DNA of 64,000 nucleotides from Thermococcus sp. AM4 (GTDB lineage: Archaea > Methanobacteriota_B > Thermococci > Thermococcales > Thermococcaceae), in assembly GCF_000151205.2 (NCBI RefSeq), contig NC_016051.1, positions 496,001 to 560,000 on the forward strand. Reading direction: 5' to 3'. Below are positions 23,296-38,916 of this stretch, one piece after another. Numbering within the stretch: the first letter of the stretch is position 1; every line of letters starts with the position of its first letter. Position numbers and translations under genes: made by a program. The notes beneath the pieces were generated by a model, which saw only the letters and a list, made by a program, of their open reading frames with translations, was not told the origin of the DNA and searched no databases.

Positions 23296-24216
23296 CTAAC
23301 CGCCCTGAACGTTGATCTTTTCGAAGATCCCCTCGAAATAGTCCGAGACGAGGTTCATGACGTCGCTCCCATCAAAGGGCAGGCCATCAACGAGCCCGAG
23401 GGCCTCTTCCACGTAACCCCTCGCCCTCGCAAGGGACTCCTCGAAGACTCCGGCCTTGCTCATCCTCTCGAAGAGCTCGAGCAGGTCATCCTCCTTTGGA
23501 TTCTTCAGGATTCTCTCGACGAGGGAGGAGCCGTAGCGCTCCGTGTAGAGGATTAGCGGGAGGGTCGTTTTTCCGTTGAGCAGGTCCTTGAAGCGGTCCT
23601 TTCCCGTTCCCGGGAAGTAGTCGAGGACATCGTCCACTATCTGAAACGCCCTCCCCACGAGCGTTCCGGCCCTATCGAGCTCTTCCCAGTATGTCTTCCC
23701 GTGGTAATAGGCGGGAAGCGCAAAGGAGGCACCGAAGAGCCGTCCGGTTTTCCCATCTATTATCCTGTAATAAGTTTCAAGGTCGAGGTGGACGCTCCCG
23801 CGCACTGCCTCCTGGAGGATTTCGGCCTTCACCATGTCCTCGACGACCTTCGCAACGTAGTCCACCATCTCGACCTTCTTACCCGCTATAATCCTCAGCG
23901 CGCGGACAAAGAGGAAATCACCGCTGAGAACAGCTAACTCAGGCCCCCAGCGCATGACGACGGTGGGGTTGTTCCTCCTCTTTTCCGCCAAGTCGATGAC
24001 GTCGTCGTGAACTAAACTGGCGGTGTGGATCAGCTCTATCGCGGAGGCGAGGTCGAGGGCATCTTTTTCCTCAAGTCCGAGGCCTTTGGCAACCGCCAGG
24101 GTTATTCTCGGCCTTATTCTCTTTCCCCCGCTCCGGATTATGTACTCCCCGATTTTCTTGGCGAGTTCGACGCTGCCTTCAAGGGCCTCAACGAGCCTCT
24201 CGTCCAGCGATTCCAT
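23296..24216 (-). CDS. Polyprenyl (isoprenyl) diphosphate synthase
   Basis: 306 residues from ATG 24216, six bases after GGAGGTG. Both aspartate-rich motifs are present: HDDVIDLAEKRR and IVDDVLDYFPGTGKDRFKD, with GGKRIRPRIT before the first. The all-helical trans-prenyltransferase adds isopentenyl diphosphate units to make geranylgeranyl or longer chains. Every archaeon needs such an enzyme for lipids, so it is not proof of quinone synthesis; but its place beside hemH, the quinone oxidoreductase-like gene and cydAB makes a side-chain role for a quinone possible. It overlaps the previous gene by 29 bases. Confidence 0.93.
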   Translation of the reverse strand: MESLDERLVEALEGSVELAKKIGEYIIRSGGKRIRPRITLAVAKGLGLEEKDALDLASAIELIHTASLVHDDVIDLAEKRRNNPTVVMRWGPELAVLSGDFLFVRALRIIAGKKVEMVDYVAKVVEDMVKAEILQEAVRGSVHLDLETYYRIIDGKTGRLFGASFALPAYYHGKTYWEELDRAGTLVGRAFQIVDDVLDYFPGTGKDRFKDLLNGKTTLPLILYTERYGSSLVERILKNPKEDDLLELFERMSKAGVFEESLARARGYVEEALGLVDGLPFDGSDVMNLVSDYFEGIFEKINVQGG

Positions 24217-25189
24217 CGATGACACCTCCGAACCTGATTCCGAAGGCAACTCCTATGAGACCAAGGAGCAGGGAGATCCCCACGTGAAAGGCCGTTGAAC
24301 CGAGTGCCAGCCCCTCGATGAGGACGAAAAGGCCCAGAAGCCTGATGTCGCGGAGCTTTGAATACGTCTCGGCCGAAAGCGCGTGGAAGGCGGTGAATAT
24401 GGCCGCGTCGAGGAAGGCCCAGTAGATCGGTCCCGTGAAGGAAACCGGTAGCTGCATTATGAAGTTCGTCGCCACGAAGGTGCCGATGGAGAGGAGGATG
24501 TACTGGCCGATGCCGAGCCCGAGGCCGAGGGAAAGGCCGTCCCTGTTCCGGGAGAAGTAGAACTTAACTGCCTCGACAGTTATCGCGGTTGTAAAGGCCG
24601 TGAACAGGGCGCGCGCAACCGTTGAGTATGCCACGATGAGGGAGATTATCCCGTAGAAGGGGATTATAACCGAGAGGCCGAGCGCAATTCCAGCACCGAG
24701 GACGAGGTCCGGAATTGAGGGCTTCCTGATGAGGTAAAACGCCCCCAGAACGAGCAGAGAGCCGATAATCATCGCGACCATTCCGGCCGGGTTCGGCTTT
24801 GCCCTCACCCCGAGGCCGATTCCAACGAGCTCGCCGTTTTCATACGTCAGGGCAACCGGAAAGCTTCCTTTCTCGGCTCTGACCTCGTATTCCAGCTTCA
24901 CCATGTCCCCTTCACGACTCTCGTTGACGAAGCTGAAGGACAGCAACTTTCCGTAGTTGGTAAGGGTGAACTCCCTCAGCTGGGCGAACTCCCTTTCCCC
25001 GAGTTCCTTCTTGAGCCTCTCGCTCATGTATGGCTCTATTAGGGAGTAGTTGCCGGTGTTCATGGCCTTTATGAAGTCCTCCATGAAGGCGTTTCCCTTC
25101 TCGGTGAACTCGTCGGCAAGAACTGACGGCTGAAGGAGCAGAATAACCGCGAGGAGCAGGGCGATGGAGGTTAGTCTTCTCATCTTCAT
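24188..25189 (-). CDS. Exported-domain plus multipass membrane protein (DUF3887-like/YhfC-like)
   Basis: 333 residues. A signal peptide (1-25) precedes an outside domain of about 105 residues (MEDFIKAMNTGNYSLIEPYM, MVKLEYEVRAEKGSFPVAL) that resembles DUF3887. Residues 135-330 hold seven or so helices with VEAVKFYFSRNRDGLSLGLG and IFTAFHALSAET, reminiscent of YhfC/PrsW-type glutamic intramembrane proteases, where Glu and His would be active. Function is unknown; the protease idea is a weak inference. It lies in the leftward hemH operon. Confidence 0.6.
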   Translation of the reverse strand: MKMRRLTSIALLLAVILLLQPSVLADEFTEKGNAFMEDFIKAMNTGNYSLIEPYMSERLKKELGEREFAQLREFTLTNYGKLLSFSFVNESREGDMVKLEYEVRAEKGSFPVALTYENGELVGIGLGVRAKPNPAGMVAMIIGSLLVLGAFYLIRKPSIPDLVLGAGIALGLSVIIPFYGIISLIVAYSTVARALFTAFTTAITVEAVKFYFSRNRDGLSLGLGLGIGQYILLSIGTFVATNFIMQLPVSFTGPIYWAFLDAAIFTAFHALSAETYSKLRDIRLLGLFVLIEGLALGSTAFHVGISLLLGLIGVAFGIRFGGVIDGIAGREAR

Positions 25190-25192: not shown

Positions 25193-25522
25193 TCACACAG
25201 CTGGGGATATGGCCTTAATGAGCTTTTTGGCCAGTCCCTCGATGCCGGGAATCCTGTAGGTTTCTCCCCTCAGCATCTTCCACATCCCGAAGGCCGCGTA
25301 GACGTACCAGAGGGCCAAGACGTAGAGCGACCAGCCGAACTCGGGGTAGCCGGGGTACATGTGCCAGGCCCCCATGAAGGCAATCCAGAAGAAAAAGCCC
25401 ACCACGCTGGAGTAGGCCGCGTGGGTCTTCGTTAGCTCGTCAGTATCTTTCATGAGGAGCAGGGGAATTCCCCCGACAAAGCCGAAGACGTAGGCTATGA
25501 AAGCGTCGCTAAGCCTTCCCAT
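25193..25522 (-). CDS. Small membrane protein, Tic20/DUF4870-like
   Basis: 109 residues, three membrane helices plus a reentrant N-terminal segment (YVFGFVGGIPLLLM). HAAYSSVVGFFFWIAF and VYAAFGMWKMLRGETYRIPG recall DUF4870-type proteins. Role unknown. Its start overlaps the end of hemH by 14 bases, so it is translated with it. Confidence 0.6.
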   Translation of the reverse strand: MGRLSDAFIAYVFGFVGGIPLLLMKDTDELTKTHAAYSSVVGFFFWIAFMGAWHMYPGYPEFGWSLYVLALWYVYAAFGMWKMLRGETYRIPGIEGLAKKLIKAISPAV

Positions 25523-26405
25523 CTTCCCACCTCCTAAGCTCCTGGACTATCGCCGAGATGAGGTAATCGTGCCTGTGGTCGAGCTTCGCCCGGTAAAACC
25601 TAAGCCCGAGCTTTTCAGCAAATTCCCGGTATTCAACGTCGAGCTCGTAAAGCGTCTCGACGTTCTCAACGAGGAAGCTGAGCGGGTAAACCAGAACCTC
25701 CTCGACGCCCTCCTCCTTAAGTCTCTCCAGGACCTCCGGAACCTCCGGCCCGAGCCAGTCGCCTTTGCCGAACCTGCTCTGGAAGGCCATTTCCCACTCG
25801 AGGTCAAAGGCCTTCATGACCCTCTTAGCCAGCTCGGTGTGGCTTTTCAGGTAGGGGTCGCCCCTCTCGATGACCTTCCTCGGCAGGCTGTGGACGCTCA
25901 GGACGACGTAGGGGTTCTCAAAACCGCTCTCAGCTAAGCCCTTCTCGATGTTGTGCCTGACCCAGGCGATGAACCTCTCGTTGCCCCACCACTCCCTGAC
26001 GTAGGGCCTATCGCCGAAGAGCTCCCTGACCTTGAGCAGGCACCTTTCGGTCGTCGAGCTGGAGTATACGTGGTAGAGGGGGAAGACAAGGTCGAAGCCG
26101 TCGCTCAGCTCCTCGAGGAGGGGTTTAGAATAGCACATGCCGAGCGCCATCTCGTGACCGGTTCTCTCGCCTACCAGTTCGGCTATCTCGCGCATGTAAT
26201 CCACGAGGGGGCTTTTCCCGCCCATAACCGCGTAGTGGCCCCTAACTGCCCGGGCGCGGGCCTTGGCTATGCCCCGGATTATCGCCTTTGCCCCGGGCAC
26301 GTCGAGGCCAATATCCCTTCTCACGTCGTAGAGAAAGCGGAATATGAAGTCCTCAACTTCATCGGGCGTCGTCGGTGCCCCCATGTATGTGAAGAGAACC
26401 CTCAA
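25509..26405 (-). CDS. hemH: Ferrochelatase (protoporphyrin or coproporphyrin type)
   Basis: 298 residues, close to the usual 300-320. Key features: active-site His172 in VLSVHSLPRKVIERGDPY, Glu250 in SFLVENVETLYELDVEY, and FQSRFGKGDWLGP, a conserved ferrochelatase strand-loop. It inserts ferrous iron into a porphyrin. Protoporphyrin versus coproporphyrin specificity cannot be decided by eye. No genes for early tetrapyrrole synthesis are in the window. It is followed by two membrane proteins and preceded by the DUF1641 and quinone oxidoreductase-like genes in one leftward operon divergent from cydAB, which would use its product. Confidence 0.93.
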   Translation of the reverse strand: MRVLFTYMGAPTTPDEVEDFIFRFLYDVRRDIGLDVPGAKAIIRGIAKARARAVRGHYAVMGGKSPLVDYMREIAELVGERTGHEMALGMCYSKPLLEELSDGFDLVFPLYHVYSSSTTERCLLKVRELFGDRPYVREWWGNERFIAWVRHNIEKGLAESGFENPYVVLSVHSLPRKVIERGDPYLKSHTELAKRVMKAFDLEWEMAFQSRFGKGDWLGPEVPEVLERLKEEGVEEVLVYPLSFLVENVETLYELDVEYREFAEKLGLRFYRAKLDHRHDYLISAIVQELRRWEDGKA

Positions 26406-26434: not shown

Positions 26435-26854
26435 TTACTTCTCGTTCAACGCCGCTCCGAGGTTCTTGGCCAGAGTTAGTAGGAAGCCGAGACCCTTCTG
26501 AACGTCCTCGTCGCGGAGGTAGCCGAGAGCGGCTGTCATTCCGACCTTCGGAACCTCCTTGGGGTTGGTCTCCGCGAGGGCCTTGAGCAGCGCTTTGACG
26601 AGTTCCTCCGTGTTCCAGCTGAGCTTTCTGACGTCCTCAACCTCGAGCTCCCTGACCGGTTTGAGGGCAGAATTCCCTATCGCGGTGAGCCTCAGTATCG
26701 CCTTCTCCTCGGCTATGGTCTCAAGCAACTTATCACCGTTCTCTGTCATGGCCCTGAGGATTCCGAGTGTTCCGCTCTTCTTCAAAGCCACGGCAACCTC
26801 AACCAGCTCCTTAACGGCGGCAATCTCTTCGGGGGTGAAATTGAGCTCGCTCAT
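26435..26854 (-). CDS. DUF1641 family protein
   Basis: 139 residues from ATG 26854 (GAGGTGAGGAAG directly before it). All helical and acidic, with VEVAVALKKSGTLGILRAM and VGMTAALGYLRDEDVQKGLGFLL. These match my memory of DUF1641, a family often encoded beside sulfide:quinone or flavocytochrome c-type oxidoreductases and formate dehydrogenases. It starts ten bases after the oxidoreductase stop, so the two are likely cotranslated and may be partners. Confidence 0.75.
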   Translation of the reverse strand: MSELNFTPEEIAAVKELVEVAVALKKSGTLGILRAMTENGDKLLETIAEEKAILRLTAIGNSALKPVRELEVEDVRKLSWNTEELVKALLKALAETNPKEVPKVGMTAALGYLRDEDVQKGLGFLLTLAKNLGAALNEK

Positions 26855-26864
26855 CTTCCTCACC

Positions 26865-28013
26865 TCACAGCCTCAAACTGTCGAGCCAGCCCCTGTAGAA
26901 GGAGTCCTTCATCATCCTGACCAGCGGGCTCTTGAAGAGCAGGTAGCACTCGCGCCTGTACTTGCTTCCGGTCCACTCGTACTCACAGTTGCCGACGAAG
27001 CCGGTGTTGTAGCCGTGGCCGACGCACATCGTCGGGGCGTACTCCGCGACCGGGAACCCGCCGTGTATCTGGTGGAGTATGCTCGTCGCGGAAACTATCG
27101 AGGCGTTGTGGAGCGGAACGCCCGCTGTCAAGAGTCCAAGCGGTGGCATGCTCGCTTCGCTGACGACGTAGACCTCATCGTAGCCGGGGTAGCGGAAGTC
27201 CGGTCCCTTAACCTTGGCCCAGCGCGGGTCCTTCTCGTCGGCCATGAAGGCCATGACGTCGGGAATCGCTATGGGTGGCACTTTGATTAGGAGGTCGTAC
27301 TCAACCTCGGCGTTCTTGGTGATGACCTTGTTCGGCGTTATCTCAACGTGCCCCTCGTTCCTGATGAAGTTCACCCTCGCCTTCTCCATTTCCCTCTTGA
27401 AGAACCTGACGAGGTCCGGACCGAGTCCGATGGCCGGCTCCTTGTCCGGGTGAACGACGGTAATCTCGACGTCGTCAATTCCGCGGTGCTCAAAGTACAT
27501 CCTGAGGTTGAGGCCCATCTCGTATGGATAGATGCCACAGCGGTGCGGTGCCTCGGGGGTGTAGATGACTATTCTCTTCCCCTTGAACTCGTAGAGGGCC
27601 TTTCTCAGCTCAAGGGCCCCTTCAAGGGTGAAGTTGTGGTAGCCGTGCTCGGCCAGTCCCTTGTACTTGTCCCAGACGTACTTGACGCCGAGGCCGAGGA
27701 CGAGGTAGTCGTAGTCGTAAACCTTTCCTCCCTCTGTCTTTACCTGTCTGTTATCGAGGTCAATCTCGGTAACCCTATCGATGTCAACCTTGAAGCCGTA
27801 GACCTTCTCGGCGTTCTTTATCGGCGCCCAGGTCTCGTGCCCCTCGGCGGAACCGAGCGCAACCTCCATGAAGAGCGGTGGCATGTAGTGCCTCTCGCTC
27901 GCGGTCACCATCGTTACGTCAACGTCAAGCTTGAGTCTGTCCGCTTCCGCCTTCAGATAGCGCGCCGCCACGAGACCGGCGGTGCCTCCTCCGAGAACCA
28001 AAACCCTGGCCAT
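26865..28013 (-). CDS. Sulfide:quinone oxidoreductase / NDH-2-like flavoprotein
   Basis: 382 residues. N-terminal FAD site VLVLGGGTAGLVAARYL (residues 4-20) and the second nucleotide fold near 145-190. Four cysteines, C159 (APHRCGIYPYE), C330 (PTMCVGHG), C343 and C356, sit where sulfide:quinone oxidoreductases carry their sulfide-oxidising cysteines; NDH-2 enzymes lack this set. The C-terminal amphipathic region (residues 360-382) could bind the membrane. The reaction would move electrons from sulfide or NAD(P)H to a quinone. It is divergent from cydAB and cotranscribed with the DUF1641 protein and hemH, implying an electron donor for the oxidase. Confidence 0.82.
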   Translation of the reverse strand: MARVLVLGGGTAGLVAARYLKAEADRLKLDVDVTMVTASERHYMPPLFMEVALGSAEGHETWAPIKNAEKVYGFKVDIDRVTEIDLDNRQVKTEGGKVYDYDYLVLGLGVKYVWDKYKGLAEHGYHNFTLEGALELRKALYEFKGKRIVIYTPEAPHRCGIYPYEMGLNLRMYFEHRGIDDVEITVVHPDKEPAIGLGPDLVRFFKREMEKARVNFIRNEGHVEITPNKVITKNAEVEYDLLIKVPPIAIPDVMAFMADEKDPRWAKVKGPDFRYPGYDEVYVVSEASMPPLGLLTAGVPLHNASIVSATSILHQIHGGFPVAEYAPTMCVGHGYNTGFVGNCEYEWTGSKYRRECYLLFKSPLVRMMKDSFYRGWLDSLRL

Positions 28014-28157: not shown

Positions 28158-28361
28158 ATGGCGGTGAAGGCTGAAACCGGAACTGAGGTGAAGGCGGGAT
28201 TAACGGCGATAGTGCTTGCCCTGCTGTTCGTTTTGGTGGCGTTCCTGCTCCACAACGTCGTTTGGGTTGTTCCGGGGATGATTTTCGGCATAGGATTTCT
28301 CATCTGGGTTCTGGAGAAGAACGGACTGGGCTTTTTCACGAAGCCGAAAGCCGGCAGCTGA
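28158..28361 (+). CDS. Small two-helix membrane protein upstream of cydA
   Basis: 67 residues from ATG 28158 (GGTGG five bases upstream; GTG 28149 is the alternative). Two membrane helices, about 14-33 and 36-55, then a short basic tail (EKNGLGFFTKPKAGS). No known motif. It has its own promoter-like CGAAAACCCTTTAAG near 28110-28124. Its position before cydAB suggests an accessory subunit like CydX/CydS, but it has no sequence similarity to them that I can see. Confidence 0.55.
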   Translation: MAVKAETGTEVKAGLTAIVLALLFVLVAFLLHNVVWVVPGMIFGIGFLIWVLEKNGLGFFTKPKAGS

Positions 28362-28363
28362 TG

Positions 28364-28378
28364 TTTTTCGTTATTTTT
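28364..28378 (+). terminator. T-rich terminator after the small membrane protein
   Basis: Two runs of five T separated by CGTTA directly follow the stop codon; archaeal termination commonly uses such U-rich ends. Confidence 0.4.
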
Positions 28379-28386
28379 AGTCAAAC

Positions 28387-28446
28387 GTCGAAAACCAAAA
28401 GTTGCCAAGTCGAAAACGTTATAAGTTTGGACATCGGTGTTTTCGA
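28387..28446 (+). promoter_or_regulatory. cydAB promoter with repeated TCGAAAAC elements
   Basis: TTATAAG (28419-28425) is the TATA and the CGAAAAC before it the BRE. The nonamer GTCGAAAAC occurs at 28387-28395 and again at 28409-28417, 22 bases apart (two helical turns), and its inverse GTTTTCGA lies at 28439-28446, at the predicted start of transcription. One copy must serve as the BRE, so only the outer two are operator candidates. Confidence 0.45.
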
Positions 28447-28478
28447 TTTGAGGAGCAAACTTTGGGAGGTGAAATGGT

Positions 28479-30002
28479 ATGGATCCCATACTGCTTTCAA
28501 GGATACAGTTTGCCCTGACCGCGGGCTACCATTGGATTTTCGTGCCCGCGAGCATAGGAATGGCCTTCATGGTCTTCCTGCTATGGACCATGGCAGCGAT
28601 AACGAACGAGGAGCAGTGGCACAAGGCGGCGAAGTTCTTCAGCAAGTGGCTTGGGGTTTTCTTCGTCCTCGGTGTCCCCACTGGAATCGTCATGGAGTTC
28701 GAGTTCGGTGCTAACTGGGCCAACTACTCGGTCTTCGTCGGCTCGATCTTCGGGCCGCCGCTGATGCTTGAGGGTCTCTTCGCCTTCGCCCTCGAGTCGA
28801 CGTTCCTCGGTGTGCTTCTCTTCGGTATGGACAGGCTCCCGAGGGCCATAACTTGGATTTCGTCGTTCTTCGTGTTCATCGGTTCGAGTCTCTCCGGCCT
28901 GTGGATTCTCATCGCCAACAGCTGGCAACAGACGCCGACAGCCTACATCATCAGGGACACGCCTCTTGGCCCCAGGGCCGAGCTGACCGACTTCATGAAG
29001 GCAGTTTTCAACCCTCTCCTGGTCAGCCAGTACACCCACACAATAAACTCCGCAATCCTCACCGGCGCCTACATAGTCGTCGCGGTCAGCGCCTACTACC
29101 TGCTCAAGAAGAGGCACGTCCAGGTCGCGAGGAGCGCGCTCGCCCTGGGCATAGTCGTTCTCGCGATAAGCTCTATAATCCAGCTCTATCCAACGGGCCA
29201 CGAGGAGGGCATGGTCATAGCCAAGTACCAGCCCACGAAGCTCGCCGCAGACGAGGGCCTCTTCAAGACCGAGAAGGGTGCGCCCATGGTCATATTCGGA
29301 ATAGTGGACGAGAAGAACCAGGAGGTTAAGGCTGCCATAGGAATTCCAAAGCTCCTCAGCTGGCTTGCCTTTGGCGACTGGAACGCTGAAGTTATGGGGC
29401 TCCACGACGCGGCCAGATACGTATGGTACGAGCAGGTTCTCAACAACCCGAACTTCGAGAACGAGAAGGTGAAGAAGCAGGTCATAGAGGGTATAATGAA
29501 GGCCCACGGCGTTGATCCCAACGCTCCAGACGCCAACGAGCAGATGGTGAAGGTCCTTGAAGATGCCGTGCCGGTTGCCTTCATGTTCTACGCCTACCGC
29601 GTCATGGTCGGCCTTGGAACGCTCTTCATACTGATCGGCCTCGTGGGCGTTCTGCTCCTCCTGCTCGGCAAGCTCTACGACGCCAGATGGTTCCTCAAGG
29701 TGCTCGTCGTGACGATACCGCTTCCGTGGCTCGCGGGCGAGGCGGGCTGGTTCACCCACGAGGTCGGCAGGATGCCATGGATGGTCTGGGGCCTCGTCAC
29801 AACGAACACGGGTGTATCCTCCAACGTCTCGGCAACCCACGTGCTGATAACCCTCATAGGCTTCGTCGTGGTCTACAGCATACTGTTCTACATCTGGCTC
29901 CACTTCGTCAGGAAGCTCATCAGAGAGGGCCCCGAGCCGGTTGAGGGTGACCTCACCTCAAAGCCAACCCCTGCCGTTAGCGCCGCGGGAGGTGGTCAGT
30001 GA
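28479..30002 (+). CDS. cydA: Cytochrome bd oxidase subunit I
   Basis: 507 residues; ATG 28479 follows GGAGGTG by seven bases. It oxidises quinol and reduces oxygen with three hemes. Expected ligands are present: the b595 histidine in TAGYHWIFVPASIGM, the b558 histidine in SQYTHTINSAILTGA and the b558 methionine in YRVMVGLG. The quinol loop has KYQPTKLAADEG, and the oxygen-site region has GRMPW in place of the usual GRQPW. The short Q-loop form and 9 helices are normal. Finding it in Thermococcales is unusual, since the order has no established quinone or heme respiration. Confidence 0.97.
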   Translation: MDPILLSRIQFALTAGYHWIFVPASIGMAFMVFLLWTMAAITNEEQWHKAAKFFSKWLGVFFVLGVPTGIVMEFEFGANWANYSVFVGSIFGPPLMLEGLFAFALESTFLGVLLFGMDRLPRAITWISSFFVFIGSSLSGLWILIANSWQQTPTAYIIRDTPLGPRAELTDFMKAVFNPLLVSQYTHTINSAILTGAYIVVAVSAYYLLKKRHVQVARSALALGIVVLAISSIIQLYPTGHEEGMVIAKYQPTKLAADEGLFKTEKGAPMVIFGIVDEKNQEVKAAIGIPKLLSWLAFGDWNAEVMGLHDAARYVWYEQVLNNPNFENEKVKKQVIEGIMKAHGVDPNAPDANEQMVKVLEDAVPVAFMFYAYRVMVGLGTLFILIGLVGVLLLLLGKLYDARWFLKVLVVTIPLPWLAGEAGWFTHEVGRMPWMVWGLVTTNTGVSSNVSATHVLITLIGFVVVYSILFYIWLHFVRKLIREGPEPVEGDLTSKPTPAVSAAGGGQ

Positions 30003-30997
30003 TGGACTACGCGAGTGCCTGGTTTTACTTTTCCGCCTTCCTCCTTGGAATGTACCTAGCGTTTGACGGCTTCGACCTCGGCATAGGCGCGTTGCTCGCC
30101 CTGATCAAGGACCAGAGGGAGCGCGACATACTCGTGAACACCATCGCGCCGGTCTGGGACGGCAACGAGGTCTGGTTCATCACCTGGGGAGCCGGGCTCT
30201 TCGCGATGTGGCCGGCGCTCTACGCGACGCTCTTCAGCACGTTCTACCTCGCGGTCTGGCTGCTCGCGTTCCTGTTCATATTCAGGGCTGTCGGCTTTGA
30301 GTTCAGAAACAAGAACAAAGAGCTATGGGACAAGCTCTTCGCCCTCGTCAGCGCATTAATCCCGCTCGTCATCGGCGTCATCGTTGGCAACCTCATCATG
30401 GGAATCCCCATCGACGCCAAGGGCTTCCACGGCTCACTGCTGACGCTCTTCAGGCCGTACCCGCTCATAGTCGGCCTCTTCGTGCTCTTCGCGGTGACCT
30501 GGCACGGGGCCAATTGGGGCGTCTACAAGACCACAGGAAAGCTCCAGGAGAAGATGAGGGACTTTGCTTTCAAGGCCTGGCTCCTGACCGTCGTCTTCCT
30601 CCTGCTCACGGTCATCGGCATGAAGATCTGGGCCCCGCTGAGGTTCGAGAGGCTCATGACCCCACTCGGACTCTTCCTGACGGTCGTAATCCTCGTGGCA
30701 GGGCTGCTCGACGGCTACCTCATCAAGAAGGGCGAGGAGAAACTAACATTTTACATCAGCTGGCTGGCCTTCCCGCTCGTGGTGTTCCTCGTCTACTACA
30801 CGATGTACCCCTACTGGGTCATCTCGACCACCGACCCGAACTTCAAGCTCAGCATACACGACCTCGCGGCATCTCCACTGACCCTCAAGGCCGTCCTGGG
30901 AATCTCGCTGATCCTGGCGGTCATCATCATGGCCTACACCCTCTACGTATACAGGGCCTTCGGCGGAAAGGTCACCGAGGCGGAGGGCTACTACTGA
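30002..30997 (+). CDS. cydB: Cytochrome bd oxidase subunit II
   Basis: 331 residues from ATG 30002, which overlaps the cydA stop (TGATG) with GGAGGTGG seven bases upstream. Eight or nine membrane helices. N-terminal LAFDGFDLGIGALLAL and WDGNEVWFITWGAG are CydB hallmarks. It pairs with CydA but binds no heme itself in known enzymes. No cydCD-type heme/thiol exporter is in the window. Confidence 0.97.
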   Translation: MDYASAWFYFSAFLLGMYLAFDGFDLGIGALLALIKDQRERDILVNTIAPVWDGNEVWFITWGAGLFAMWPALYATLFSTFYLAVWLLAFLFIFRAVGFEFRNKNKELWDKLFALVSALIPLVIGVIVGNLIMGIPIDAKGFHGSLLTLFRPYPLIVGLFVLFAVTWHGANWGVYKTTGKLQEKMRDFAFKAWLLTVVFLLLTVIGMKIWAPLRFERLMTPLGLFLTVVILVAGLLDGYLIKKGEEKLTFYISWLAFPLVVFLVYYTMYPYWVISTTDPNFKLSIHDLAASPLTLKAVLGISLILAVIIMAYTLYVYRAFGGKVTEAEGYY

Positions 30998-31047: not shown

Positions 31048-31096
31048 ATTCGAGTCACCTAAGTTCCTTCTGGAAACCTAAAAAACGGTGGTCGAA

Positions 31097-32299
31097 ATGC
31101 ACAGAGGCAGATCTACCGGCTGGCCCTACGACCGGAAGCCGGTCCTCGTCTTCTGGGAGACGACGAAGGCCTGCCAGCTCAAGTGCAAGCACTGCAGAGC
31201 GGAGGCGATACTCCAGGCACTGCCGGGCGAGCTGAGTACCGAGGAGGGAAAGGCCCTCATCGATTCCCTCACCGACTTCGGAAGGCCCTACCCGATACTC
31301 ATTCTCACCGGTGGCGACCCGCTCATGAGGAAGGACATCTTCGAGCTTATTGACTACGCTGTTGAGAAGGGCGTAAGGGTAGGCCTCGCCCCTGCCGTGA
31401 CACCTCTCCTGACCGAGGAAACAATCGAGAGAATCGCGAGGAGCGGAGTTAAGGCGGTAAGCATAAGCCTCGACAGCCCGTTTCCAGATGTCCACGACGC
31501 AATCAGAGGCATAGAAGGGACGTGGGAGAAAACCGTCTGGGCCATCAAGGAGTTCCTGAAACACGGCCTAAGCGTTCAGGTGAACACGGTTGTGATGCGC
31601 GAGACCGTTGAGGGTTTGCCCGAGATGGTGAAGCTCCTCAAAGACCTCGGCGTCGAAATCTGGGAGGTCTTCTACCTCGTCCCGACCGGGAGGGGCAACT
31701 TCGAGAGCGATCTAAGGCCGGAGGAGTGGGAGGACGTCACGCACTTCCTTTACGAGGCCTCGAAGCACCTCCTCGTGAGGACCACCGAGGGCCCGATGTT
31801 CAGAAGGGTAGCGATAATGAGGAAAGCCCTTGAGGAGAGGGGACTCGACCCCGACGAGGTTCTCAAGCCAGGGGAACTCTACTTCCGGCTGAAGAAGAGG
31901 CTCGTTGAGCTTCTCGGCGGAGGTGGAGAGGCGAGGGCGCAGACGATGGGGACGCGCGACGGAAAGGGAATCGTTTTCATCGCCTACAACGGCAACGTCT
32001 ACCCGAGCGGTTTCCTGCCCTTCAGCGTCGGCAACGTCCGCGAGAAAAGTTTGGTCGAGATTTACAGGGAGAGTGAACTTATGAAAAAGCTCCGCTCGGC
32101 CGAGTTCGAGGGGCGCTGTGGGAAGTGCGAGTTCAGGGAAATCTGCGGGGGAAGCCGGGCGAGGGCCTACGCCTATAGCTTAAACCCTCTCGCCGAAGAC
32201 CCGGCCTGCCCGTACGAGCCCGGCTCATACCTCAGGCTCGCCGGCGAACTCGGGCTGAACCTTCCAATCGGAACCTTCGGAGGGCAAAAGCCGATTTGA
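31097..32299 (+). CDS. Radical SAM/SPASM protein, AhbD/NirJ/TIGR04053-like
   Basis: 400 residues from ATG 31097 (GGTGG six bases upstream). The radical SAM cluster is C26-x3-C30-x2-C33 (KACQLKCKHC), followed by LTGGDPL. The C-terminal SPASM region has CGKCEFREICGGSRARAYAY and a later DPACPY, a pattern shared by AhbC, AhbD and NirJ. AhbD turns iron-coproporphyrin III into heme by two oxidative decarboxylations. The gene sits between cytochrome bd and a tetrapyrrole/iron-type importer, with ferrochelatase nearby, so a heme-related reaction is likely. Exact reaction is inference. Confidence 0.8.
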   Translation: MHRGRSTGWPYDRKPVLVFWETTKACQLKCKHCRAEAILQALPGELSTEEGKALIDSLTDFGRPYPILILTGGDPLMRKDIFELIDYAVEKGVRVGLAPAVTPLLTEETIERIARSGVKAVSISLDSPFPDVHDAIRGIEGTWEKTVWAIKEFLKHGLSVQVNTVVMRETVEGLPEMVKLLKDLGVEIWEVFYLVPTGRGNFESDLRPEEWEDVTHFLYEASKHLLVRTTEGPMFRRVAIMRKALEERGLDPDEVLKPGELYFRLKKRLVELLGGGGEARAQTMGTRDGKGIVFIAYNGNVYPSGFLPFSVGNVREKSLVEIYRESELMKKLRSAEFEGRCGKCEFREICGGSRARAYAYSLNPLAEDPACPYEPGSYLRLAGELGLNLPIGTFGGQKPI

Positions 32300-32309
32300 G
32301 GTGGTGGAG

Positions 32310-33368
32310 ATGAGGTGGAGCGGTCTAATCCTGTCGGTCGTTCTCCTCCTCGCGGTCGTTTCGGCCGGTTGCGTGGGCAACTCAACCGGAACCTCAAGCG
32401 AGGCAACGGCAAAGGAAGTAACCGTGAAGGACTTCTCGGGAAGGAGCGTCACGGTTAAAGTTCCGGTTCAGCGGGCGGTCGTTCTCTCGACTTCCGCCCT
32501 CGAAATAATCCAGCTCCTCAACGCGAGCGACCAGGTCGTCGGGATTCCCAAGGAAGCCCAGTACGACGCTTTACTGAGCGAAAGCCTGAAGAACAAGACC
32601 GTCGTCGGCGCGAGGCTCAAGATTACCGACTGGGAGAAGGTTTTAGCTCTGAAGCCCGACCTAATCATCGACCTCGACCTGAAGAAGTTCTACAACGTTG
32701 ACGAGCTCCTCAACCGCTCCGCCAGCTACGGAATTCCGGTTGTTCTTCTGAGGGAGGATAACCTCGAGGACATACCCAGGGCCGTTTCGCTCCTCGGCGA
32801 GCTCTTCGGAAGGGAGAAAGAGGCCAAAGCCTTCGACAACTACTTCAACGAGCAGGTGAAGGGAGTTCAGGCCATAGCCTCAAAGGTTCCGGCCAACGAG
32901 AGGAAGAAGGTCGTAATGATACAGCCGATAATGGGCAAGCTCTACCTCGTCAACGGCAACGACGTCCTTGCTCAGGCCGTCAGGCTTGTGGGGGCGAACT
33001 ACCTCGTGAACCTGACCTTCAACGGCTACACACCGGTTAGGGTCCCGATGGACGGGGAGAAGATAATAGCGAGCTACCGCGACGCCGACGTCGTAATCCT
33101 CCTCACGAGCGCAATAACGCCTTACGAGAAGGTCGAGAAGCTCAGGGAGGAGATGCTCAGCGATGAGGCCTGGAAGGGCATTAAGGCCGTCGGGGAGGGC
33201 AACGTAGTAATCCTCAGGGCGGACATGGGCAAGGACTCCTTCCTCCGCTGGAGCCCGCGCTTGGCAGTGGGAATCTGGGTCATTGGAAAGGCAATCTACC
33301 CGGACTACTACCCCGCCTGGAATGACAAGGCCAAGGACTTTCTGAAGAGGTTCTACGGCCTCTCCTGA
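32310..33368 (+). CDS. Substrate-binding lipoprotein of a FecB/BtuF-type importer
   Basis: 352 residues from ATG 32310. Lipoprotein signal ending VVSAGC, with the lipid-anchored Cys20, then a Thr/Ser linker. Two Rossmann-like lobes joined by a long helix follow the cluster-A-2 family pattern: AVVLSTSALEIIQLLNAS, LKPDLIIDLD, and SFLRWSPRLAVGIWVIGK at the end. The family binds siderophores, cobalamin or heme outside the cell. Being next to heme-related enzymes, porphyrin or heme is the best guess. Confidence 0.85.
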   Translation: MRWSGLILSVVLLLAVVSAGCVGNSTGTSSEATAKEVTVKDFSGRSVTVKVPVQRAVVLSTSALEIIQLLNASDQVVGIPKEAQYDALLSESLKNKTVVGARLKITDWEKVLALKPDLIIDLDLKKFYNVDELLNRSASYGIPVVLLREDNLEDIPRAVSLLGELFGREKEAKAFDNYFNEQVKGVQAIASKVPANERKKVVMIQPIMGKLYLVNGNDVLAQAVRLVGANYLVNLTFNGYTPVRVPMDGEKIIASYRDADVVILLTSAITPYEKVEKLREEMLSDEAWKGIKAVGEGNVVILRADMGKDSFLRWSPRLAVGIWVIGKAIYPDYYPAWNDKAKDFLKRFYGLS

Positions 33369-33389
33369 TTTTCCTTTTGGGGTGGGACG

Positions 33390-34259
33390 ATGATAGCGGT
33401 CTTTCCAGCGAGTCTCGCGGAAATCGTCAAACTCGTCGGGAAAGCCGGGGAGATAGCCGGGGTGAACGAGGAAATCAGGCTTGACCCCTGCCTTCCCGAG
33501 CTGAAGGATAAGCCTGTCATCGGGAAGTACCTCAAGAGGAGCAAGAAGACCTACTGGGACGTTCTGGAGGAGCTTAGGCCGGACCTTATCCTCGACTTCG
33601 AGGTTGAGAACCTGCACTCAGGGAACGAGCTGAGGGCCTTTGGGGAGCGTATAGGGGCAAGGGTCGAGCTGATTGACTTCGAGACTGTTGAAGGCCTCGT
33701 CGAGGCGAGCAGGAGGATAGCCGAACTGACGAACGGCGATTTTTCAAGGCTCGGTGAATTCTATGAGAAGCACCTGACGAGGCTGGGTGAGATAACTGAA
33801 GCCATCGAGGAGAGGCCTAAAGCCCTGCTCACCTACCGGAACTTCAACGTCGTAACGAGGACCAACGTTCTGAGCGACGCGGTTAGAAAAGCAGGGGCGA
33901 TGAACCTCGGCGAGAGGATACAGACAAGGCGGAAGGTCTATCCGGTAAAGAAGGAGCGCTTCTTCAGGGCCTTCGGCGATGCGGAGCACCTCTTCCTGCT
34001 CACGAGCATAATGACGGACAGGGAGAAGATGGAAGAGATAAGGGACGAAATCCTTGACTCGGCCGAGTGGAGGGCAATCGAAGCCGTTCAGCTCGGAAAC
34101 GCGCACATAGTCGGCTCGGCCCTCGACCTTGAGAGCTTCATGCGCTGGAGTCCCCGCATAATCCCGGGAATCTACCAGCTCGGAAGGTTTGTTCACGGAA
34201 GGGCCTTTCCGAAGTGGAAAAGAGTCGCGGGGGAACTCTACTCGCTCTGCGGTGTTTGA
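33390..34259 (+). CDS. Leaderless FecB/BtuF-fold protein
   Basis: 289 residues; GGGGTGGGACG lies just before the ATG. Sequence is homologous to the lipoprotein upstream (FPASLAEIVKLVGKAGEIAG, LRPDLILDFE, SFMRWSPRIIPGIYQLGR) but begins directly with the fold: there is no signal peptide, lipobox or membrane helix. It is therefore predicted to be cytoplasmic. A ligand carrier or chaperone for the imported molecule is possible; a start missed upstream is unlikely because only 21 bases separate it from the previous stop. Confidence 0.75.
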   Translation: MIAVFPASLAEIVKLVGKAGEIAGVNEEIRLDPCLPELKDKPVIGKYLKRSKKTYWDVLEELRPDLILDFEVENLHSGNELRAFGERIGARVELIDFETVEGLVEASRRIAELTNGDFSRLGEFYEKHLTRLGEITEAIEERPKALLTYRNFNVVTRTNVLSDAVRKAGAMNLGERIQTRRKVYPVKKERFFRAFGDAEHLFLLTSIMTDREKMEEIRDEILDSAEWRAIEAVQLGNAHIVGSALDLESFMRWSPRIIPGIYQLGRFVHGRAFPKWKRVAGELYSLCGV

Positions 34260-34260: not shown

Positions 34261-35199
34261 ATGAAGAGAGAACTGACTCTGGTAATCCTTCCGGTGGTGG
34301 CGGTGCTCCTCGGGGTCTTCGTGGGTAGCTACCCGACCAACCCGCTCCACCTCGATAGCTTAGCCAAGGCCATAATCTGGAAATTCAGACTTCCGAGGAC
34401 GCTTATGGGTGTCTCGGCCGGAATAGCCCTGAGCTTAGGCGGAATGACCCTTCAGGCAGTTTTCAGAAACCCTCTCGTTGATACCTACATTCTGGGCGTG
34501 GCATCGGGAGTGGCCTTTGGCGCAGCACTGGCCGTCGCTTTCCTCCCCTTCATCGGCCTCGCACCGCTCGCGCTCCCCTTCGGCCTCTTGGCGGTTTTCT
34601 TAGCCTATTACCTCGCGCGCGTCAACGGCAGGGTCTCTACCGTCTCGCTAATCCTCGGCGGAATAATCGTTACTGCCCTTTTCTCCGCCCTGCTTTACCT
34701 CCTCGAACTGCTCCTTCCGAGCGAGAGCTTATCCGGTTTAGTCGTCTGGCTGATGGGAAGCTTGGCGAACTCAACGTGGAAGACGGTGGTTTATTCCCTC
34801 CCCGGAGTCGTCCTCATAGCCGTGCTCCTCTACCTCCTCCGCTGGAACCTGAACGCAATGAGCCTCGGCGACGAGGCAGAAATCCTCGGCCTGAACGTCT
34901 CCTTCTGGAGAGGGATTTTCGTGTTCCTGTCTGCCCTCCTAACGGCGCTCGTGATTTCCTTCACGGGCATAATCGGATGGGTCGGGCTGATAGTCCCGCA
35001 CACGGCGAGAATGCTCGTCGGGCCCGAGCACTCGAAGCTGATTCCTGCAACAATCTCGATTGGAATAACCGTTATGGTCTTGGCGGATGTGATAGTCCGC
35101 CTTCTTCCGGGGGACATCCCCGTTGGGATAATAACGACCCTCGTGGGAGTTCCCTTCTTCGCGTATCTCCTCAGAAAAACCGGAGGTGGTTGGAGTTGA
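34261..35199 (+). CDS. FecCD-type importer permease
   Basis: 312 residues, starting one base after the previous stop. About nine or ten membrane helices. Motifs: WKFRLPRTLMGVSAGIALS, TLQAVFRNPLVDTYILGVAS and GIIGWVGLIVPHTARMLVG, which are the standard marks of BtuC/FecCD permeases. It should form a homodimer with two copies of the ATPase at 35806-36576. Confidence 0.93.
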   Translation: MKRELTLVILPVVAVLLGVFVGSYPTNPLHLDSLAKAIIWKFRLPRTLMGVSAGIALSLGGMTLQAVFRNPLVDTYILGVASGVAFGAALAVAFLPFIGLAPLALPFGLLAVFLAYYLARVNGRVSTVSLILGGIIVTALFSALLYLLELLLPSESLSGLVVWLMGSLANSTWKTVVYSLPGVVLIAVLLYLLRWNLNAMSLGDEAEILGLNVSFWRGIFVFLSALLTALVISFTGIIGWVGLIVPHTARMLVGPEHSKLIPATISIGITVMVLADVIVRLLPGDIPVGIITTLVGVPFFAYLLRKTGGGWS

Positions 35200-35819
35200 G
35201 GATTCTCATCGTTTACACGACCCGCTACGGAACGACCGAAAGGGCCGTAAAATTGGCTAAGAAGCTCTTCGAGGAGGAAGGCCACGAAGTGGAGGTCAGG
35301 GAGGTTAAGGAGAACCCCTCGCTAAGGGGCTACGACCTGGTCGTCATGAGTGCCCCCGTTTACCGCGACGGCCCCCACTGGGATTTGACGGACTGGATAA
35401 GCGAGCACCGGGAGGAGCTTGAAGACGTTCCAAAGGCGTTCTTTCTGGTGGCGATGCATTTGGCCGGCTCGGTCTTCATGGGGAAGCTCCACGGTGGAAT
35501 AGCCTACTCCCAGCCACTGATAGAGGCCTTTGAAGTTCCGCCCTTCTACGGGACGCTCATCGGGGGCGAGATTGACGTTGAAAGGCTCAGCGACGAGGAC
35601 AGGAGGAAGATGAAGCGCTTCTATGCGGTCCTCGGTGAGAGGCTCGAAAGCAAGAGCCTTTACAGGGAGGAGGACGTTAAAGCGTTCGTGAGGAGGACTC
35701 TATTGTATTACGACTGGTTCGGGAAGCACTTCAGGCGGGGCGAGGTCAATAAAGCTAAAGACTTCGACTTCATGGAGAAGGTAAGGGAGATGGAGGCAAA
35801 GCTCGATGCTGAGGGCTGA
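35196..35819 (+). CDS. HemG-like flavodoxin domain protein (possible porphyrinogen oxidase)
   Basis: 207 residues from TTG 35196 (overlaps the permease stop; GGAGGTGG seven bases upstream). N-terminal flavin-phosphate loop IVYTTRYGTTERAVKLAK, then MSAPVYRDGPHWDL and VAMHLAGSVFMGKLHG. HemG of gamma-proteobacteria is a flavodoxin that oxidises protoporphyrinogen IX using quinone. The location inside an importer operon, before the ATPase gene, supports a redox step on an imported tetrapyrrole, but a general flavodoxin is an alternative. Confidence 0.7.
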   Translation: MRILIVYTTRYGTTERAVKLAKKLFEEEGHEVEVREVKENPSLRGYDLVVMSAPVYRDGPHWDLTDWISEHREELEDVPKAFFLVAMHLAGSVFMGKLHGGIAYSQPLIEAFEVPPFYGTLIGGEIDVERLSDEDRRKMKRFYAVLGERLESKSLYREEDVKAFVRRTLLYYDWFGKHFRRGEVNKAKDFDFMEKVREMEAKLDAEG

Positions 35820-36576
35820 TAACCTCTCGTACTCCTACGGGGACTTCGGAATCGAGGGGGTTAGCCTGGAGGTTGAGACGGGTGAGTTCGTCGCCCTAAT
35901 CGGGCCGAACGGCGCGGGGAAGAGCACCCTCCTGAGGCTAATATACGGCCTGTTGAAGCCCGAAAAGGGGCGCGTCTTCGCCGACGGAAGGGACGTTCTG
36001 AGACTCTCCTCTAAGGAGAGGGCAAAACTGCTCGGCTACGTTCCCCAGAACCACGTTCCGACCTTCCCCTTCATGGTTCTCGACTTCGTCCTCCTCGGGG
36101 CAACCCCTGAACTCGGGACCTTCGGCTCGCCAGGGAAGGAGCACAGGGAAAGGGCTGAAAGGTTGCTCAAGCACTTCGGCCTCGATGCTTATCGGGAAAA
36201 GCCCTACACCGCCCTGAGCGGGGGGCAGAAAAGGCTTCTCCTCCTCGCGAGGGCGATGATGACGTCGCCCAAATATCTCCTCCTCGACGAGCCGACGAGC
36301 GAGCTCGACCTCAAGAACGCCCTCCTCGTCCTCGGAACCGTTAAGAGGCTCGCGAGAAATGGTGTGGGTGTTCTGGCGGTTCTCCACGACCCCAACTTAG
36401 CCTACCTTTTCGCCGACAGGGTCGTCCTCATGAGGAACGGGAGGATAGTGGCTGAAGGAAAGCCCTCGGAGGTCCTGTCTGAGGAACTTTTGAGCGGGCT
36501 TTATGGGGTTAAGCTTAAGGTGATGGAGTGCAACGGGGAAAGGGTTTTGAGGGTTCTCCCGGAGGTGCTCCCATGA
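35806..36576 (+). CDS. FecE/BtuD-type importer ATPase
   Basis: 256 residues, start overlapping the flavodoxin gene by 14 bases. Walker A ALIGPNGAGKST, Q-loop VPQNHVPTF, signature YTALSGGQKRLLLLARAM, Walker B YLLLDEPTSELD and the switch histidine in VLHDPNLAY. It completes the FecBCD-like importer with 32310-33368 and 34261-35199. Confidence 0.95.
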   Translation: MLRADNLSYSYGDFGIEGVSLEVETGEFVALIGPNGAGKSTLLRLIYGLLKPEKGRVFADGRDVLRLSSKERAKLLGYVPQNHVPTFPFMVLDFVLLGATPELGTFGSPGKEHRERAERLLKHFGLDAYREKPYTALSGGQKRLLLLARAMMTSPKYLLLDEPTSELDLKNALLVLGTVKRLARNGVGVLAVLHDPNLAYLFADRVVLMRNGRIVAEGKPSEVLSEELLSGLYGVKLKVMECNGERVLRVLPEVLP

Positions 36577-38030
36577 GGGACATGCGCGACTATCTGGAAT
36601 GGCTTGAAGCGAGAGGCGAGCTGATTAGAGTTAGTGAGGAGCTTTCGCCCGAGCTTGAAATTCCCGCGTTTCTGAGGAGGGCGATGTATCAAAAGGCAGG
36701 CGCGGTTCTCTTTGAGCGCGTTAAAGGCCACCCGGAGTGGAAGGTAGCGGGAAACCTCTTCACGAGCGTTGAGACCGTTAGGGAAGCCCTCGGCGTTGAA
36801 AGGCTTGAGGAAATCGGCGAGAGACCGCTAAAGCTAATGGAAAGCCTGCCCCTTGGATTGTCCGACAAGCTGGCCTCCATCTCAAGGCTCAGGGAGCTAA
36901 GCAACTACCTGCCGAAGCTCGTGAGAAAAGCGGAGTTCACGAGGAACGTGGTGGAAGACGAGCCCCTGAACTTCGTTCCGGCCTTTAAAACGTGGCCGAA
37001 GGACGGTTCACGCTACCTCACCTACCCGCTCGTCTGCTTCTCGGACCCGAGAGGAATTAACTCCATCAGCGTCTACCGCGTCATGCTCCTCGACGGTGAA
37101 AGGGGTGTAATCCACTGGCAGGTTCACAAGCGCGGAAGTCAGGCCTGGATGGACTACCTCGAGAGGAACGACGGCAGAATGTCGGTCGCGATAGCGATTG
37201 GCTCCGATATAGGCACTCTCCTGACGGCAGTTTCTCCCGTTCCCTATCCTATGGACAAGCTCCTTTTCGCGGGCTTCGTTCGCGGTTCGGGTTTGGAGCT
37301 CTACCGCCTGCCCAACGGTGTCCTCGTTCCGGCAAACGCGGAAGCGGTCATAGAGGGCTACGTTCAGGTTGACGAGCTGAGCGAGGAGGGTCCCTTCGGC
37401 GACCACTTCGGCTTCTACGATAAGCCGAGCGAGAGGAACGAGCTCTACCCCGTTTTCCACGCAGAGAGGGTTTACTACCGCGACAACCCGATTTACTACG
37501 GCTCGGTCGTTGGGAAACCGCCGTTGGAAGATGCCGTAATCGGAAAGGCCATCGAGAGGATTTTCCTCCCGTTGATGAGGGTCGTTTTGCCCGAGGTCGT
37601 CGATGTGAACTTCCCCGAATACGGCGTCTTTCAGGGCGTCGCGATAGTCTCGATAAAGAAGCGCTACCCTGGGCAGGGGAAGAAGGTTCTCAACGCGCTC
37701 TGGGGAATGGGGCAGATGGCGCTGACGAAGGTCATAGTGGTTGTCAGCGACGATATCAACCCCCACGACATAAACCAGGTGATATGGGCGATAGCTTCCT
37801 TCGTGAACCCCGAGCGGGACGTTTTAATAATCCCGCACGCCCACACAGACGCGCTCGACCCGGCCGTTCCGAGGCCTCCGCTCGGGAGCAAGCTCGGCAT
37901 AGACGCTACCAGAAAGCTCCCTGAGGAGATGGACGGCAGGGTCGTTGAGGAGGTTAAAGAAGACCCCGAAGTCCTTGAAAGGCTTGAAGACCTATTCATG
38001 GAATACCTCGGTGGTAGCGATGGCCTTTGA
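36573..38030 (+). CDS. ubiD: UbiD-family prenylated-FMN decarboxylase (UbiD/MqnL-like)
   Basis: 485 residues from ATG 36573, overlapping the ATPase stop as ATGA. Family motifs include FVPAFKTWPKDGSRYLT, IHWQVHKRGSQAW, EGPFGDHFGFYDKPSERNEL and the C-terminal RPPLGSKLGIDATRK. UbiD enzymes remove a carboxyl group from aromatic acids with prenylated FMN; in quinone pathways they act on prenylated hydroxybenzoate or naphthoate. A UbiX/MqnM-type flavin prenyltransferase would be needed and is not in the window. Direct overlap with the UbiA gene ties it to quinone assembly. Confidence 0.9.
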   Translation: MRDMRDYLEWLEARGELIRVSEELSPELEIPAFLRRAMYQKAGAVLFERVKGHPEWKVAGNLFTSVETVREALGVERLEEIGERPLKLMESLPLGLSDKLASISRLRELSNYLPKLVRKAEFTRNVVEDEPLNFVPAFKTWPKDGSRYLTYPLVCFSDPRGINSISVYRVMLLDGERGVIHWQVHKRGSQAWMDYLERNDGRMSVAIAIGSDIGTLLTAVSPVPYPMDKLLFAGFVRGSGLELYRLPNGVLVPANAEAVIEGYVQVDELSEEGPFGDHFGFYDKPSERNELYPVFHAERVYYRDNPIYYGSVVGKPPLEDAVIGKAIERIFLPLMRVVLPEVVDVNFPEYGVFQGVAIVSIKKRYPGQGKKVLNALWGMGQMALTKVIVVVSDDINPHDINQVIWAIASFVNPERDVLIIPHAHTDALDPAVPRPPLGSKLGIDATRKLPEEMDGRVVEEVKEDPEVLERLEDLFMEYLGGSDGL

Positions 38031-38916
38031 CCCCGGAGAGGTTAGGGAAGCCAACAGGTTTCACGCGCTGATGAGGCTCGTCAGAATAGAGCACACCCTC
38101 TTCAGCCTGCCCTACGCTTACGTCGGCGCTTTCCTCAGCGGTTTCCCGGTAACCCTGAGGGAGCTAATCCTGATGAGCCTTGCCCTGCTCGGACTCAGGA
38201 CTTCTGCTTTAGCCTACAACAACATAGCCGACCTCGACATAGACAGCCAGAACCCGAGGACGTGGAATAGACCGCTGATTAAGGGAACCGTGAAGGTGAG
38301 CGACGCCTGGTGGCTCGTCGTCGTTGGCTCGGTAATCTACTTCGTCTCGGCAGTCCTTCTCAACCGCTGGACAGCTCTGCTCAGTCCGATTCCCTGGTTA
38401 ATAGCGATGAGCTACTCCGGGGCAAAGAGGAAGCACAGCTTCCCCCATCTCCACCTCGGATTAACGCTCGCCCTGGCCGTTGCGGGCGGAACGATAGCCG
38501 TCGCTGACAACGCTCCTTTCATAGAAGTCCTCGCGCGGATTCCCTGGGCGTTCTTCTTCGGCGTCCTCTTCTGGGTGGCTGGCTTCGACACGATATACAC
38601 GATAATGGACTACGAGTTCGACGTTAAGCACGGCGTTGGAAGCATCCCCGCGAGGTTTGGCATAGAGAAGGCCCTCAAGATTGCCCTCGCCTTCCATCTT
38701 CTCGCTATAGCCCTCTTCGGCCTGGCTGGATTCCTCTACGGCCTCGGCCGGGTTTATTTAACCGGTTGGCTCGTCGCGAGCGCCCTAATCCTCTACGAGA
38801 ACGCAATCGTCTGGAAGAGCCTTGACAACGTTCCAAAAGCGTTTAACCTCAACATTCCAATCGGTTTAATCCTCACGCTTTCGGCCATAGCGGACAAGCT
38901 TTTAGGAGGGGTTTGA
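38020..38916 (+). CDS. ubiA: UbiA-family aromatic prenyltransferase (UbiA/MqnP-like)
   Basis: 298 residues from ATG 38020 after GGTGGTAGCG, overlapping ubiD by 11 bases. Eight or nine helices. First metal motif AYNNIADLDIDSQNPRTWNRP and second DTIYTIMDYEFDVKHGVGSI are those of the 4-hydroxybenzoate/naphthoate polyprenyltransferases, distinct from archaeal geranylgeranylglyceryl phosphate synthases. It joins a polyprenyl chain to an aromatic carboxylate in the membrane. The acceptor is unknown. Confidence 0.9.
   Translation: MAFDPGEVREANRFHALMRLVRIEHTLFSLPYAYVGAFLSGFPVTLRELILMSLALLGLRTSALAYNNIADLDIDSQNPRTWNRPLIKGTVKVSDAWWLVVVGSVIYFVSAVLLNRWTALLSPIPWLIAMSYSGAKRKHSFPHLHLGLTLALAVAGGTIAVADNAPFIEVLARIPWAFFFGVLFWVAGFDTIYTIMDYEFDVKHGVGSIPARFGIEKALKIALAFHLLAIALFGLAGFLYGLGRVYLTGWLVASALILYENAIVWKSLDNVPKAFNLNIPIGLILTLSAIADKLLGGV

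Follow-up and report, generated by a model that had tools for sequence, protein, structure and literature searches.

A conserved cytochrome bd island in Thermococcus with a possible salvage route for heme and quinone

The window analyzed here, a 64,000-nucleotide stretch of the Thermococcus sp. AM4 genome, encodes a cytochrome bd oxidase (CydAB) inside a syntenic gene island. Around cydA and cydB, the island carries late enzymes for heme and quinone synthesis, two predicted ABC importers, and a flavoprotein resembling sulfide:quinone oxidoreductase (SQR), and the genome holds these finishing enzymes without the early ones that were tested. Thermococcus is a textbook obligate anaerobe, and neither heme synthesis nor an established quinone is known to us in the genus. 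We judge it an even call that the oxidase works by salvage—with a scavenged tetrapyrrole, a scavenged quinone ring, and sulfide electrons passed through the SQR-like protein to O2. Oxygen respiration in these cells would probably depend on parts taken from neighbors.

Oxidase, distribution, and inheritance

CydA matches PF01654 over all 418 profile positions (494.9 bits; cut-off 26.2), CydB exceeds the TIGR00203 cut-off (187.2 against 117.3 bits), and the closest PDB relatives of CydA are Escherichia coli bd-I (E = 3e-87) and bd-II (9e-86). All four E. coli heme ligands—H19, H186, M393, and E445—are kept, as H18, H187, M376, and E428. The residue map likewise retains E99, E107, and R391 (E98, E106, and R374 in AM4), quinol-loop K252 and E257 (K254 and E259), and R448 and W451 (R431 and W434). 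These comparisons bear out a first-pass annotation that had described conserved heme histidines, methionine, and quinol loop in CydA and an intact CydB. The sole change among the checked residues is Q449 to M432, the GRMPW in place of GRQPW that the annotation had singled out. The substitution is real yet not diagnostic: Full-length Thermococcus CydAs read E(V/I)GRMPW in 10 of 16 cases and EVGRQPW in the other 6. As both residues occur inside the genus, we dropped GRMPW as a functional marker, and the difference reads as ordinary, trivial variation. With the other catalytic residues kept and the oxidase genes under purifying selection (ratio of nonsynonymous to synonymous substitution rates, dN/dS, 0.05–0.14), the predicted oxidase looks functional, as first supposed. 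No CydX-like open reading frame was recognizable in the 90 bases 3′ of cydB.

The oxidase itself is already known, and its presence in Thermococcales, the subject of the first-pass annotation, is no novelty. CydAB of T. gammatolerans (tg1232-1233), adjoining UbiE, UbiA, and UbiD, was described in 2009 (PMC2718504); a 2012 paper (PMC3512248) reported CydAB from both T. gammatolerans and T. sp. AM4. The pertinent passages of these two papers mention neither the ferrochelatase, the importers, the SQR-like gene, the absence of HemB and Mqn enzymes, nor the loss scars, and in the relevant passage of the second, the archaea listed with SQR are Thermoplasmatales and Sulfolobales alone (PMC3512248). 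As far as searchable papers go, the cofactor-salvage island is undescribed.

Presence/absence surveys covered the genus (61 genomes), the family (94), and a phylum sample (115). CydA was confined to Thermococcus (18/61, 18/94, and 18/115, respectively). The ferrochelatase HemH and the SQR-like protein were each found in 19 of the 61 genus genomes: all 18 with CydA and, in addition, the incomplete genome G066, in which a short contig bears both genes. The NMT1-type binding protein of the second importer occurred in 17 of 18 CydA-positive genomes and in none of the 43 others, the exception being G057, whose island is cut at a contig end. The radical SAM family TIGR04053, counted when over its cut-off or split across two contigs, showed the same pattern (16/18 and 0/43); a contig end cuts the island in one exception (G067), and the absence from the other (G019) is genuine. 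Fisher P values for co-occurrence range from 1e-14 to 8e-13 and are descriptive values only, as relatedness is ignored.

The island appears old within the genus. Gene order is identical in eleven other cyd-positive regions, contig-end gaps aside; G019 differs. All island genes are under purifying selection (pairwise dN/dS mostly 0.02–0.25, with one value of 0.27), and their distances track those of flanking genes within the genus (Mantel r 0.57–0.98). Several relatives carry scars at the locus. G025, with flanks 89–94% identical, has the hyfD-like and ferritin genes adjacent in a clean empty site; in G062, a broken polyprenyl synthase is fused to the final 142 residues of UbiE; in G028, a truncated polyprenyl synthase runs into the end of the second ATPase, beyond which UbiE is intact and the SDR gene broken; and G020 keeps only the polyprenyl synthase and SDR genes. 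Because these end points differ, an ancestral island must have been lost independently several times. A respiratory module can thus be ancestral and lost repeatedly, so that a patchy distribution is not in itself a sign of recent lateral transfer. Recent transfer into two species, the reading of the 2012 paper, was therefore set aside in view of CydA in 18 species, the Mantel correlations, and the scars.

An older transfer into the genus is likely. Thermococcus CydA forms a single, fully supported clade, on a very long stem that points to no donor. The nearest matches outside Thermococcus were about 40% identical in a scan limited to two peptide patterns. The salvage reading, held at even odds as a whole, treats the locus as a vertically inherited, frequently lost respiratory kit of Thermococcus. 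Mrp/HyfD/NuoN-like genes at 15.6–23.2 kb were considered as part of such a kit and rejected, being present in island-less relatives. The independent deletion scars, the empty sites, and the 43 of 61 genomes without CydA would also fit a decaying relic, a formerly functional island now being lost, with CydAB inactive for want of cofactors. The islands that are present, however, have all genes intact, low dN/dS, and conserved promoters, and we consider a relic very improbable.

Supply of heme, quinone, and electrons

HemB (PF00490) was absent from all 61 genus genomes in a search that detected its positive controls, so de novo tetrapyrrole synthesis is impossible there by any known route. The island ferrochelatase HemH keeps the catalytic His and Glu, conserves the HSLP and ETLYELD segments, and has human protoporphyrin ferrochelatases as its closest PDB relatives. 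The radical SAM protein scores 306.6 bits on the AhbD profile, under the cut-off of 500, and belongs to the sister family TIGR04053, on which a paper search found no published work. For the flavodoxin-fold protein, the HemG model is the best NCBIfam match (33.6 bits; cut-off 142), and alignment to E. coli HemG is confined to residues 4–89 (the N-terminal 85 residues). For the first importer, the top-scoring models are IsdE, a heme-binding protein, and an ATPase of heme ABC transporters, all below cut-off, with the permease nearest cobalamin models. Under the salvage reading, porphyrin (or heme) would enter through this Peripla_BP_2/FecCD/FecE importer, and an imported porphyrin would be finished by the HemG-like flavodoxin and HemH, perhaps together with the radical SAM enzyme related to AhbD.

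The quinone genes follow a similar pattern. UbiA, UbiD, and UbiE act only on a ring built by other enzymes, and UbiD activity needs a UbiX-type flavoprotein, which is encoded elsewhere in the genome. MqnA/MqnD (PF02621) were absent from 61 of 61 genus genomes, and MenD had no match in the AM4 genome itself. The island UbiD scores 411 bits on TIGR03701 (cut-off 496) versus 303 bits on E. coli-type UbiD, and UbiA scores 173–202 bits on MqnP models versus 118 bits on proteobacterial UbiA, placing both, by profile score, nearer futalosine-type than ubiquinone-type models. From what is known of the pathway, UbiD, UbiA, and UbiE together would convert a carboxylated dihydroxynaphthalene to menaquinone without hydroxylases. 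With HemB and MqnA/MqnD absent, a working oxidase would depend on external precursors of both heme and quinone.

The predicted structure of the NMT1-type binding protein (predicted local distance difference test score, pLDDT, 86.8) has PqqT as its best PDB fold match, followed by TauA and Thi5; what we take to be MqnA-like proteins are also among its fold matches. PqqT binds the quinone PQQ. We propose, with the fold match as a hint only, that the second importer carries the quinone ring: A carboxylated naphthalene-type ring would enter through it and be finished by the polyprenyl synthase, UbiA, UbiD, and UbiE to a menaquinone-like quinone.

Both importers could instead be mere neighbors of the oxidase, the first carrying iron, a siderophore, or cobalamin and the second a sulfonate or a thiamine precursor, with the cofactors entering otherwise (e.g., by passive uptake). 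The highest scores of the first permease are to cobalamin and iron-chelate models, the best PDB sequence match of the second binding protein is taurine-binding TauA, and G019 manages without the first importer. Yet the second importer is restricted to CydA-positive genomes and is flanked, in the regions checked, by UbiA and UbiE, and the first is linked to the HemG-like and AhbD-like genes; we hold this explanation to be unlikely.

A further alternative retains the oxidase and dispenses with scavenging: CydAB would be a laterally acquired, O2-detoxifying quinol oxidase, with the Ubi genes making its quinone and the heme source unspecified. A detoxifying quinol oxidase is the published reading for T. 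gammatolerans in the relevant passage of PMC2718504, and in G019, CydAB, HemH, and the quinone genes occur although the heme-import segment is missing. This account has to contend with the lack of HemB, which leaves the 61 genomes no known de novo tetrapyrrole route; with the need of UbiA/UbiD/UbiE for a ring made elsewhere, MqnA/MqnD and MenD not having been found; and with the position of both importers inside the syntenic island. We find it rather unlikely.

For the salvage reading, the remaining component is an electron donor. The SQR-like protein exceeds the PF07992 cut-off, and its closest PDB relatives are human SQOR (E = 5e-18) and flavocytochrome c sulfide dehydrogenase. Its candidate redox-active cysteine pair, C159 and C330, matches cysteines of human SQOR in the alignment and does not vary among 8 sequences; conservation is also high in the C-terminal stretch. 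Its score on the type III SQR model is 116 bits against a curated cut-off of 525, and we therefore call it SQR-like rather than SQR. The gene is divergent from cydA, with which it has a common intergenic region. By homology, the protein is the probable electron donor to the quinone. Its predicted structure was too poor to use (pLDDT 53), and a paper search found no literature joining SQR with DUF1641, the family encoded next to it. Separately, the SQR-like gene (26865–28013) is 98–99% identical between AM4 and G022/G043 and only 83% identical in G019, and its Mantel r with flanking genes (0.57) is below that of other island genes, a possible sign of recombination inside the genus.

In the resulting scheme, sulfide electrons would pass through the SQR-like flavoprotein to a quinol and on to CydAB, where O2 would be reduced to water. 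The net effect would be removal of O2, return of sulfide to sulfur, and some proton-motive force; sulfur is the usual electron acceptor of Thermococcus cells. A complete O2 chain on one island, with heme and quinone ring scavenged, sulfide as donor, and O2 regenerating elemental sulfur, is in our estimate somewhat short of an even prospect.

Several observations weigh against the salvage scheme. The SQR-like, HemG-like, IsdE-like, and AhbD-like assignments all fall under curated cut-offs. The PqqT match concerns a widespread binding-protein fold at 17% identity and says little about the ligand. The absences of early pathways cover HemB, MqnA/MqnD, and MenD, and another ring pathway is possible. 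Finally, in G019 (region 1145001–1180000) the radical SAM gene, the first ATPase gene, and all that lies between them are missing, with ubiD directly after cydB. CydAB and HemH are nonetheless retained, and selection on cydA, cydB, and hemH shows no relaxation. The heme-import segment is thus not strictly required. The segment may have been lost recently, or else porphyrin takes a different way into the cell and HemH alone is enough. G019 is probably T. gammatolerans, whose published gene numbers fit the cydAB–ubiD adjacency. Missing the radical SAM protein, binding proteins, permease, HemG-like protein, and ATPase, it offers a natural test case for heme import.

Layout and surroundings of the island

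The core island spans about 20 kb (23296–41891) and is flanked by the hyfD-like gene (21693–23207) and the ferritin gene (43240–43761); its features are collected in Table 1.

Table 1. Features of the cyd island and its right edge (positions in the window)
Feature	Position	Strand	Basis
Polyprenyl diphosphate synthase at left island end; may act on quinone side chain	23296..24249	-	Profiles for polyprenyl synthases; HepT scores highest (151 bits, below cut-off)
Membrane protein, 333 aa; island gene	24188..25189	-	Weak DUF3887 match below cut-off; syntenic
Membrane protein, 109 aa; island gene	25193..25522	-	Weak Pfam match (2TM) below cut-off; syntenic
hemH, ferrochelatase, 298 aa; start codon uncertain	25509..26405	-	TIGR00109, 165.7 bits (cut-off 124.6)
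DUF1641 protein adjoining the SQR-like gene	26435..26863	-	PF07849, 46 bits (cut-off 21)
SQR-like flavoprotein, 382 aa; divergent from cydA	26865..28013	-	PDB relatives; PF07992
Conserved hydrophobic protein, 67 aa, upstream of cydA	28158..28361	+	Probably two membrane helices
Archaeal-type promoter core of cydA, CGAAAAC.TTATAAGTTTG	28411..28429	+	Near-invariant across 11 aligned upstream regions
cydA, cytochrome bd oxidase subunit I, 507 aa	28479..30002	+	PF01654 profile; E. coli residue map
cydB, cytochrome bd oxidase subunit II, 332 aa	29999..30997	+	TIGR00203 over cut-off; 4-base overlap with cydA
Radical SAM/SPASM protein TIGR04053, AhbD relative	31088..32299	+	TIGR04053, 522 bits (cut-off 395)
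ABC importer binding lipoprotein 1 (Peripla_BP_2)	32301..33368	+	PF01497; best named model heme-binding IsdE, 53 bits, below cut-off
Second Peripla_BP_2-like binding protein	33390..34259	+	PF01497, 25.5 bits, slightly under cut-off
BtuC/FecCD-type ABC permease	34261..35199	+	Best scores: cobalamin and iron-chelate models
HemG-like flavodoxin-fold protein; exact start uncertain	35190..35819	+	PF12724, 59.9 bits; protoporphyrinogen dehydrogenase-like
ABC ATPase of first importer	35806..36576	+	Best model heme ABC transporter ATP-binding protein, 218 bits (cut-off 261)
UbiD-family decarboxylase	36573..38030	+	UbiD Pfam domains; nearest futalosine-pathway (MqnL-type) enzymes
UbiA-family prenyltransferase, MqnP-like	38020..38916	+	PF01040
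NMT1/TauA-type binding lipoprotein, second ABC importer	38917..39882	+	PF09084
Second importer permease	39885..40613	+	Matches to SaoP, NtrB, and SsuC models, below cut-off
Second importer ATPase	40589..41221	+	ABC ATPase models
UbiE/MenG methyltransferase; right end of core island	41187..41891	+	TIGR01934, 218 bits (cut-off 158); NF001244 over cut-off
SDR/epimerase-like protein; right edge	42453..43247	-	PF01370; kept in most islands

The 67-residue protein upstream of cydA, overlooked by the first-pass annotation, occurred in each of the 11 cyd-positive regions checked, had no real match in six cyd-negative relatives, and matched no Pfam family over its cut-off; by position and conservation it is a candidate accessory subunit of the oxidase. 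TATA-type elements before its gene and before the divergent SQR-like gene are conserved, and the remaining spacer is variable. At the right edge, the SDR/epimerase-like protein had no match in the G019, G059, and G067 regions. Beyond the ferritin gene, a 205-residue protein without a Pfam family (44056–44673), 86–97% conserved, adjoins the island in most regions read.

Farther downstream, an oxygen-defense cluster (50706–58948) encodes a flavodiiron protein, rubrerythrins, a peroxiredoxin, a Fur-family regulator, and a DUF438/hemerythrin/PAS protein, so that the rubredoxin-based system placed by the first-pass annotation at 50–62 kb was roughly right. Its suggestion that the oxidase adds O2 removal to that system is plausible beside the flavodiiron/rubrerythrin genes; the annotation overlooked the island itself, with an SQR-like donor, late cofactor enzymes, and importers. 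Between the two loci, adjacent HEPN-like and nucleotidyltransferase-like genes (48024–48843) form, by eye, a possible toxin–antitoxin pair. The membrane proteins on either side (47332–47928 and 48857–49399) have similar C-termini (..AEISIKI and ..AEISIKV) and are perhaps duplicates.

Relation to known systems

If the chain works as proposed, some Thermococcus species would respire traces of O2 when given porphyrin and quinone precursors by their neighbors. That would change the view of vent organisms meeting oxygenated seawater and would account for any lack of activity in pure cultures grown in defined medium. The salvage reading also predicts the ligands of the two importers and a role for the uncharacterized radical SAM family TIGR04053.

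Among characterized oxidases, the long Q-loop CydAB of E. coli is the closest point of reference: Both subunits, the heme ligands, the quinol-loop residues, and an aligning Q-loop insert are the same, whereas Thermococcus has no CydX-like reading frame after cydB and a different 67-residue protein upstream. The CydAB of T. gammatolerans and AM4, in the published passages on it, represents the same genes, near UbiE, UbiA, and UbiD.

For the quinone branch, the counterpart is the late futalosine pathway (MqnP, MqnL, and a UbiE/MenG-type enzyme), with the island UbiA and UbiD scoring nearer MqnP and MqnL. Thermococcus differs in being without MqnA and MqnD genus-wide, with an importer in the operon instead.

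The nearest physiological parallel lies in bacteria. In Streptococcus agalactiae and lactic acid bacteria, the oxidase is a cytochrome bd, and the quinone or its precursor also comes from outside. The likeness is respiration on scavenged heme: S. agalactiae respires without heme synthesis by scavenging heme, according to the relevant passage of PMC2858704. In contrast to that system, the island of an archaeal hyperthermophile joins predicted importers, both finishing pathways, and an SQR-like donor in one place.

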